Positions 300 through 57,637 of a stretch of 60,279 nucleotides of DNA are shown here, in pieces. The DNA lies in the NCBI GenBank assembly GCA_030156895.1, contig JASGLP010000011.1, forward strand, positions 1 through 60,279. Reading direction: 5' to 3'. The position numbers were made by a program, and so were the translations under genes. Within the stretch, counting starts at the first letter, position 1. The number at the start of each line of letters is the position of its first letter. The notes under the pieces are model-generated. The model searched no databases. It was not told the DNA's origin and worked only from the letters and a program-made list of their open reading frames with translations. This DNA is from Eubacteriaceae bacterium. GTDB lineage: Bacteria; Bacillota; Clostridia; Eubacteriales; Eubacteriaceae.

Positions 300-343
300 G
301 CACCGACCAATTGGATTTTCTCTTGTACCCAATTGGTCGGTGC
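300..343. repeat. Internally deleted copy of the hairpin element
   Basis: A perfect 15-bp inverted repeat (GCACCGACCAATTGG at 300-314, its complement at 329-343) with a 14-nt loop. The same termini bound the larger copies near 3.8, 5.3, 39.9 and 57.3 kb, and the outer flanks (CTGAGCACC on the left, GGTGCGGGG on the right) also match, so this is a copy that lost its middle. It lies between rarA and the M16C gene. No T-run follows on either strand, so it is not a normal intrinsic terminator. Confidence 0.75.
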
Positions 344-363
344 GGGGTATATCATCCCTCACT

Positions 364-3728: not shown

Positions 3729-3759
3729 TTTCTACCTGCGTTTTGACTTTCTGATCGAA

Positions 3760-3923
3760 AACAAAGTTAATACCAGAGCACCGACAATTGGCTTTTCAGC
3801 TGTCTGCCTCGGGGCGAACAGTTGCTTGAAAACGTCGATAATTATATCTTCCAAATTAGGCAACTGTACGAATCCGCGCGCAGACTGCGAAATCCAATTG
3901 TCGGCGCGGCGTTTGTCAACGCA
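3760..3923 (-). repeat. Hairpin element, copy A (degraded)
   Basis: Core GCACCGACAATTGG starts at 3778 and ends with CAATTGTCGGCGC near 3907. Between them are the shared inner blocks CTGTCTGCCTCGGGGCGAAC, CAACTGTACGAATCCGCG and CAGACTGCG. The outer end ACAAAGTTAAT (from 3761) matches the ends of the copies at 5.3 and 57.3 kb, and GTTTGTC.ACGCA at 3911-3923 matches the other end. Orientation is opposite to copies B and D. It occupies most of the gap between the methylase start and the 101-residue gene. No clear flanking duplication remains. Confidence 0.8.
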
Positions 3924-4112
3924 TCAAAAGCGCTTTCTTCCTTTATTATTGCCAAATGATACAGGGAATTATAACATAAACTTTCTTAAATACAAAGAAG
4001 TTGCTGGTCGTTATCAGTCAAATTCCAGCTCTTTTTACTTGCCAGCCAGCCATCCTTACCCTATACTCTATTTATAAGCTGCTGCTTAAATCAACTTAAA
4101 AGGAGCATTAAC

Positions 4113-5262: not shown

Positions 5263-5282
5263 AACCGGCACAGTGGCCGGTT
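5263..5282. terminator. Terminator hairpin, left copy (target duplication of element B)
   Basis: AACCGGCACAGTGGCCGGTT forms a GC-rich hairpin preceded by an A-run, so it is a terminator for minus-strand transcription. The same 20 bp (one mismatch) recurs at 5467-5486 on the other side of element B, there followed by a T-run. Confidence 0.7.
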
Positions 5283-5466
5283 CAGTGTGTAGACAAACCC
5301 CGCACCGACCAATTGGATTTCGCAGTCTGCGCGCGGATTCGTACAGTTACCCAATTTGAAAGCCAAAATATTCAGGGTTTTCCAGCAACTGTTCGCCCCG
5401 AGGCAGACAGCTGAAAAGCCAATTGTCGGTGCTCAGGTATTCGATATTAACTTTGTCTTCAGTCTG
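5283..5466 (+). mobile_element. Hairpin element copy B, MITE-like, inserted in a terminator
   Basis: 184 bp between two copies of a terminator hairpin. It starts CAGTGTGTAGACAAACC and ends TTAACTTTGTCTTCAGTCTG. The AGACAAA near each end is inverted and forms short terminal repeats. The inner arms GCACCGACCAATTGG / CCAATTGTCGGTGC and ACAGTT / AACTGT fold into a long interrupted hairpin. It contains no reading frame of interest. Non-coding, structured, multi-copy and bounded by a target-like duplication, it behaves as a non-autonomous mobile element; no transposase able to move it is in the window. Confidence 0.75.
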
Positions 5467-5486
5467 AACCGGCACAGTGGCTGGTT
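5467..5486. terminator. Terminator hairpin, right copy (target duplication of element B)
   Basis: AACCGGCACAGTGGCTGGTT followed by TTTTT, a plus-strand intrinsic terminator. It is identical to 5263-5282 except for one C-to-T change. The left copy keeps the A-run and the right copy the T-run, as if a single bidirectional terminator had been split by the insertion. Confidence 0.7.
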
Positions 5487-29899: not shown

Positions 29900-29923
29900 A
29901 AATTAAATAAACAATCCGAACTT

Positions 29924-30070
29924 GCCGACCTAAAGAGTATTCCATGGTTTGCCAGTCGTTAGAGTGTTACTGGAAACGGTCTCACTTTCCAGTGTGTAGA
30001 GGATGGTTTTTATTCTTTGCGGCTGTTGTCAGTCGTTTTTTATTGCTCTAAAAATCAGGGTTTTCCCTTG
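29924..30070 (+). promoter_or_regulatory. Structured 5' leader of tupA, possible riboswitch
   Basis: Nested pairings close a branched structure: GCCG (29924) with CGGC (30020), AAAGA (29932) with TCTTT (30014), CCAT (29942) with ATGG (30003). Inside, CCAGT (29952), ACTGG (29969) and CCAGT (29989) offer two exclusive hairpins; the second is extended, ACTGGAAA/TTTCCAGT. A further hairpin AATCAGGG/CCCTTGATT precedes the ribosome binding site. Switching structures before a tungstate transporter suggest metal or cofactor control. It did not match the Moco/Tuco consensus as remembered, so the class is open. Confidence 0.45.
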
Positions 30071-39789: not shown

Positions 39790-39877
39790 TCACTTTTCTC
39801 CTGCAATTTTTTTATATTCGCTAAATCTTTAATTCGGCATTTCTAATATGAAAACCATGACTTATTAGTCATATTTA

Positions 39878-40050
39878 AGACAAAGCTAATTTTGAATCCC
39901 TGAACACCGACAATTGGCTTTTCAGCTGTCTGCCTCGGGGCGAACAGTTGCTGGAAAACGCTTTTAATAATAGTTTCAAATTGAGCAACTGTACGAATCC
40001 GCGCGCAGACTGCGAAATCCAATTGGTCGGTGCGGGGGTTATTTCACGCC
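39878..40050 (-). repeat. Hairpin element, copy C
   Basis: ACACCGACAATTGG (39904) to CCAATTGGTCGGTGC (40033), same orientation as copy A, with inner blocks CTGTCTGCCTCGGGGCGAAC and CAACTGTACGAATCCGCGCG. The outer end AGACAAAGCTAAT at 39878 matches the other copies. It lies between cimA and leuB, probably inside the operon transcript. A small hairpin ATGACT-TATT-AGTCAT (39857-39872) adjoins on one side only, so no target duplication is visible. Confidence 0.8.
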
Positions 40051-40068
40051 ACAATTTAATCAGTTATT

Positions 40069-57301: not shown

Positions 57302-57320
57302 AAGATGGTTTTTACCATCT
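57302..57320. terminator. Terminator hairpin, left copy (target duplication of element D)
   Basis: AAGATGGTTTTTACCATCT, hairpin AGATGG/CCATCT. An identical copy lies at 57503-57521 on the far side of element D, there followed by the T-run. Confidence 0.7.
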
Positions 57321-57502
57321 CAATGCGTAGACAAACCTCGCACCGACCAATTGGATTTCGTAGTCCGCACGCGGATTCGTACAGTTGCTCAATTTGAAAT
57401 CGCTAATTATTGACGTTTTCCAGCAACTGTTCGCCCCGAGGCGGACTACTGAAAAGCCAATTGTCGGTGCTCAGGTAGATAAAATTAACTTTGCTTCAGT
57501 CT
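57321..57502 (+). mobile_element. Hairpin element copy D, MITE-like, inserted in a terminator
   Basis: 182 bp, the same layout as copy B: starts CAATGCGTAGACAAACC, ends AACTTTGCTTCAGTCT. GCACCGACCAATTGG at 57340 pairs with CCAATTGTCGGTGC ending 57470. The arm segment TAGTCCGC pairs with GCGGACTA where copy B has AGTCTGC against GCAGAC, a compensatory change. Flanked by a perfect 19-bp repeat of the TetR gene terminator. Confidence 0.78.
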
Positions 57503-57521
57503 AAGATGGTTTTTACCATCT
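57503..57521 (+). terminator. Terminator hairpin, right copy (target duplication of element D)
   Basis: AAGATGGTTTTTACCATCT followed by TTTTT, a complete plus-strand terminator for the TetR gene. Identical to 57302-57320. Confidence 0.75.
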
Positions 57522-57554
57522 TTTTTAATACAATGGAATGCTGTTTTTCACACA

Positions 57555-57637
57555 AAGAGCCCGATTTTCATTTTGAAAACCGAGTTCTTTGACAATTTAA
57601 AGCGGGTTTGATGTTAATTCATCAAACCCGCTTTTTT
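57555..57637. terminator. Two tandem hairpins, terminator of nifJ
   Basis: The nearer stem, AAAGCGGGTTTGATG / CATCAAACCCGCTTT (57599-57634), is strong and has T on both sides; the farther one (57555-57592, CCGATTTTC/GAAAACCGAG) is weaker. They lie between the convergent TetR gene and nifJ. Confidence 0.75.

Follow-up and report, generated by a model that had tools for sequence, protein, structure and literature searches.

The window analysed here is a 60,279-nucleotide stretch of a Eubacteriaceae bacterium (NCBI GenBank assembly GCA_030156895.1, contig JASGLP010000011.1, positions 1 to 60,279 of the forward strand), which lies in a 3.0-Mb draft genome estimated to be 85% complete. It contains four copies of a short non-coding element, two of them decayed, together with a deletion derivative, arranged as follows.

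300..348 (+), deletion derivative in which only the outer stem of the element body is left
3749..3924 (-), element A, a copy without recognisable duplication
5263..5282, left copy of a duplicated terminator hairpin, which keeps the A-run
5283..5466 (+), element B, 184 bp, with imperfect terminal inverted repeats CAGTGTGTAGACAAAC / CAGACTGAAGACAAAG and a palindromic body
5467..5486, right copy of the hairpin, 19/20 identical, which keeps the T-run
39870..40056 (-), element C, with decayed ends, an intact body and no duplication
57303..57320, left hairpin copy at element D
57321..57503 (+), element D, a second copy whose last base could equally belong to the duplication
57504..57521, right hairpin copy at element D, followed by a T-run

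Element B lies between AACCGGCACAGTGGCCGGTT and a 19/20 identical copy of it, and element D between two identical 19-base copies of AAGATGGTTTTTACCATCT. The two elements are homologous to each other, whereas their hairpins are unrelated. No open reading frame of 80 aa or more covers B or D, such that the element encodes no transposase and is non-autonomous, and Rfam searches gave nothing at gathering score over the elements. Elsewhere in the window there is a molybdenum cofactor riboswitch (29902-30020, plus strand; RF01055, 50.8 bits), and a hairpin repeat of about 47 bp (57548-57594) that is 89-95% identical to the ends of the same-genus IS1182 elements described below (in genomes G007, G012 and G014), is found elsewhere in the genus, and is missing from the orthologous site in G014.

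A sequence-only reading of this DNA had proposed that B and D each split a bidirectional terminator and are flanked by two copies of it, and that a small mobile element targets intrinsic terminators, making a 19-20 bp duplication of the whole hairpin that keeps termination intact. The observation is confirmed and holds genome-wide, except that the duplication is not of constant length. The interpretation is supported as to mobility, the preference for terminator-like hairpins, the duplication of whole hairpins and the suggestion of an IS1182-type transposase, although termination itself was not tested, and the length varies with the hairpin.

A genome-wide family that duplicates hairpins

A 19-base pattern from the element body has 111 matches in the genome (1 with the reversed pattern as a control) and a second core pattern has 126 (control 0), showing that the family has about a hundred or more copies. 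Among 61 genomes 16 match, comprising 15 of the 19 in the genus, Acetobacterium (this genome included), and 1 of 42 outside it, weakly. Flanks were collected for 100 of the 111 places and for additional BLAST hits, and merging of regions with an identical 100-base core (122 to 105) left 105 distinct copies or pieces; three of these lacked a flank and two short ones were dropped, leaving 100 copies of at least 150 bp. Because the copies were found mainly with a body pattern the collection favours intact bodies, and of 18 further places chosen from matches to the second pattern, 11 lack part or all of the inner body by our reading. A long form with an extra inner insert is also present (L009:166, L047, L054, L089, L096 and L098, of 255-270 bp, and L325 and L311; L numbers denote loci, with a position where one follows), and a similar-looking insert occurs in element L082 of genome G016. 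L325 folds strongly on both strands (z -8.5 and -7.3) without an Rfam match at gathering score.

The sequence-only reading would have failed had most copies lacked flanking duplications, and this is not the case. The left and right flanks align with a score of at least 24 in 62 of the 100 copies, compared with 0 of 1500 mismatched left/right pairs, and with a score of at least 20 in 73, compared with 13 of 1500; 38 copies score below 24. Of the 62, 57 hold a stem of at least 5 pairs and 5 hold none, 59 abut the element within 4 bp at both ends, and no two of the duplicated stretches are alike. This last finding, with the match of left to right only within a copy and the single hairpins at orthologous sites described below, refutes for the copies tested the alternative that the element is a composite repeat carrying its own hairpins, or that the duplications arose by local recombination, even though hairpins adjoin the element in most copies. 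Two copies about 1 kb apart (L020, at C50:69590 and C50:70568, where C50 is a contig) each lie in their own duplicated hairpin.

For measurement we took the 55 duplications with a score of at least 26 near both ends and dropped 4 with indels. Of the 51 gap-free cases, 50 span 16-33 bp and one is 10 bp, ruling out a fixed length of 19-20 bp. The centre of the duplication, with the hairpin centre sought only inside the duplication, falls on the hairpin dyad exactly in 29 and within 1 bp in 44, with 7 off-centre, and 40 abut the CAG and CTG ends of the element exactly. Mirror positions inside the duplication pair at ≥70% in 21 of 51, compared with 5 of 2032 random flank windows. Length correlates with stem-loop length, though modestly (Spearman 0.36 for all 51, and 0.44 for 43 symmetric ones); a cruder measure of palindrome extent gave 0.23 (n=40, p=0.16), but it penalised loops and is not used. 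In 42 of 44 symmetric sites at least 4 of the 8 bases after the hairpin are T or at least 4 of the 8 before it are A, although no background control was made, and of the 85 copies with both neighbouring genes called, 29 lie between convergent genes, 7 between divergent genes, and 32 and 17 between co-directional genes. We compared the two hairpin copies for compensatory changes and found that 4 of 34 changed pairs changed on both sides, but draw no conclusion because the stem was defined on the right copy.

Sites without the element in relatives were a further requirement set in advance by the sequence-only reading, and they exist. The relative G014, assembled in one contig, was examined at 12 copies: A, B and D of the window, five in region L110 and four in region L094; C was not included. 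At 9 of these, flanking sequence is found without the element, and at 5 of the 9 (D, L110:900, L110:8800, L094:11647 and L094:16431) there is one clear hairpin of 9-15 pairs where the present genome has two. Of the other four, L094:2352 has only a doubtful, diverged hairpin, seen by eye but called with only 4 pairs and therefore not counted, whereas A, L110:5120 and L094:973 show weak or no hairpins, and these copies lack a clear duplication in the present genome; L094:973 is not a clean site (616 bp against 15 bp). The comparison is between species, and B, L110:9922 and L110:11510 gave no decision, with a transposase-like sequence (IS5-like by our reading, not searched) lying next to the G014 site orthologous to L110:11510 (L220/L221, at about 198900-199500 of G014 contig C1). 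In 91 aligned copies, those with a duplication become rarer with divergence from the consensus (20/22, 18/22, 13/22 and 6/25 by quartile), as expected if the duplication forms at insertion and then decays.

IS1182-family elements as candidate mobilisers

The element is a MITE with CAG...CTG ends, being short, non-coding and abundant, with imperfect terminal inverted repeats and a target-site duplication. No IS1182 transposase was found in the draft genome in searches with the PF13751 profile and with the L128 protein, but IS1182-family elements and relics with the same or similar ends occur in relatives. Two same-genus elements of 1488 bp with ends CAGACTGTCAAA (CAGACTG ends), L127 in genome G007, whose gene has stop codons, and L128 in genome G012, are flanked by palindrome duplications of 20 and 22 bp. 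The L128 protein, which is also carried on a contig of A. wieringae DSM 1911, passes the IS1182 model NF033551 (362 bits, cut-off 270), as do those of L267 (434 bits) and L230 (408 bits); other loci were not scored. A third same-genus element, L125 in G014, has unlike hairpins at its two ends. A relic in genome G009 (L146), of which two pieces match IS1182 below the cut-off, ends in CTTCGTCTTCAGTCTG directly before a hairpin, 15/16 identical to the MITE right end CTTTGTCTTCAGTCTG; its other end was not found. Diverged relatives of the MITE itself in G009, G014, G015 and G016 also sit between duplicated hairpins: of 41 rows representing 39 distinct loci 12 passed, but L072 and L207 are one copy and L202 is not hairpin-centred, giving 10 distinct copies, of which 5 are in G009.

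A scan of genome contigs found 195 relatives, of which the best 80, IS1182 loci in Clostridia, were examined. Forty-three of the 80 have CAG...CTG ends and a duplication of 20-41 bp, perfect in 36 and centred exactly on the dyad in 40, with a Spearman correlation of 0.69 between its length and that of the stem-loop. The 43 do not represent 43 species, since nine of the loci examined are from Chakrabartyella piscis (8 qualify) and five from CCNA10 (3 qualify), while L228/L229 are the copies L127/L128; some of the 43 have short ORFs (from 317 aa). The other 37 did not qualify, some because contig ends cut them and others because ends were not found, and L281 has 16/16 ends without a duplication. 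Closest to the MITE ends among the 43 are L271, with 15/16 at one end and a stop in its matched stretch, and L267 of Desulfosporosinus hippei, with 13/16 at both ends and an intact 490-aa gene. No intact element with exactly the MITE ends was found among the loci examined, and these partial matches leave the identity of an autonomous partner undecided; the mobiliser, probably an IS1182-family transposase, is inferred. A different mobiliser, such as a site-specific recombinase, an HUH (IS200/605) transposase or a group IIC intron, is very unlikely: terminator preference alone would fit group IIC introns, but terminal inverted repeats together with target duplication do not fit those classes, there is no Rfam intron match in the window at gathering score, and the ends and duplication pattern match IS1182 elements.

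Proposed mechanism and comparison with known systems

The explanation that we favour, with high confidence, is that B and D are copies of a non-autonomous element moved in trans by an IS1182-family DDE transposase that recognises a DNA palindrome, usually terminator-like and probably extruded as a cruciform. A duplication that spans one dyad-symmetric hairpin and grows with it means that the two strand-transfer points are set by the target rather than by the enzyme, and the simplest geometry is attack at the 5′ foot of each arm of the cruciform, followed by gap repair of the single-stranded arms, which copies the whole arm on both sides and leaves one complete hairpin on each. In this view each side keeps a complete hairpin with its own T-run, and termination should survive insertion in both directions. 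Our data demonstrate the family, its duplications with their dyad symmetry and varying length, the absence of the element at orthologous sites, the fading of duplications with divergence, and the same pattern in transposase-bearing IS1182 elements with CAG...CTG ends; that an IS1182 transposase moved this MITE, that a cruciform is extruded, that attack occurs at the 5′ feet and that termination is kept are inferences, made without biochemistry. That larger elements with a transposase gene behave in the same way suggests that the enzyme recognises folded DNA rather than a sequence.

Two other accounts of the target seem unlikely. The first is that the transposase makes an ordinary fixed stagger and merely prefers symmetric sequences, which is consistent with the symmetry of most targets, with the occurrence of some cuts inside a longer stem and with the modest MITE correlation, but not with lengths that vary in both the MITE and IS1182 sets and correlate with hairpin length. 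The second is that the target is a paused termination complex (an RNA hairpin, R-loop or stalled polymerase) rather than a DNA cruciform. Most targets do look like terminators, with A- or T-runs by the above criterion at 38 of 43 IS1182 sites as well, also without a background control; however, the lack of such runs at 5 of the 43 weakens this account, some targets are loop-free palindromes (for example L228 and L258), and IS1272 also inserted at a site inside a helicase gene (PMC5678879).

An unexpected finding is the conservation of the palindromic body. When the 91 aligned copies are ordered by how well their ends are kept, the last quartile (25) retains 59% and 64% identity at the ends and 75% in the apical loop, but 94% and 95% in the two body stems, and some copies, such as L103_4092, have lost both ends and the duplication yet keep the body. 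Five of 34 body pairs show two-sided changes. G-U and A-C cells are about equally common in the stems (20, of which 9 are at one pair, and 17, by our count), so that no strand is favoured as an RNA and an RNA role on one strand is not supported. In addition to the bias in how copies were found, we cannot rule out that gene conversion homogenises the bodies, although the variable apical loop speaks against it; a selected host role is possible but not shown. A tentative extension is that a branch of IS1182 transposases is structure-guided, cutting at the feet of extruded hairpins, and that its MITE has seeded about a hundred terminators in one genome, turning each into a double terminator around a body that the host then keeps by selection, as a domesticated 3′-end module of unknown role.

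DDE transposases normally leave duplications of a length fixed by the enzyme, whereas in the 51 measured MITE copies and 43 transposase-bearing elements it varies with the target hairpin, which is natural evidence for strand transfer at cruciform feet. This offers an assay for cruciform extrusion in living cells and a class of insertions that should leave termination intact, and the conserved body opens a second question, that of what keeps it. Hairpin targeting by IS1182-family elements is already known; duplication of the whole hairpin, with a length that varies with the target, in dozens of copies, and a high-copy MITE that shows it, did not appear in our searches of the open-access literature.

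Of the systems closest to this one, group IIC introns also favour terminator hairpins, but are ribozyme retroelements without target duplication. Prokaryotic MITEs (PMC10969869) share with the element its short, non-coding nature, terminal repeats, target duplication and palindromic body, but the main text of that review does not mention IS1182 and nothing that we saw in it describes duplicated terminators. Palindromic targets have been noted for IS1182-family insertion sequences (Siguier 2015, as cited in PMC5678879), and IS family tables reportedly list IS1182 direct repeats of up to about 60 bp with a note on palindromes. The family is not uniform, acting with or without target duplication or deletion (PMC12056078) and including ISCaa15, which is listed with 4-bp direct repeats (PMC3196728); we saw in this literature no rule that the duplication equals the palindrome, and no MITE. 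IS1272 / TnSha1 (PMC5678879, PMC4923244), whose transposase is of the same family, targets hairpins, often terminators, by structure rather than by sequence, but it replaces the hairpin (PMC5678879) or partly deletes it (PMC4923244) and leaves no duplication, whereas here the hairpin is not lost but duplicated whole. Duplication of a whole stem-loop is drawn in PMC5678879, a 2017 paper, only as a hypothetical pathway b, of which the present data look like natural cases.
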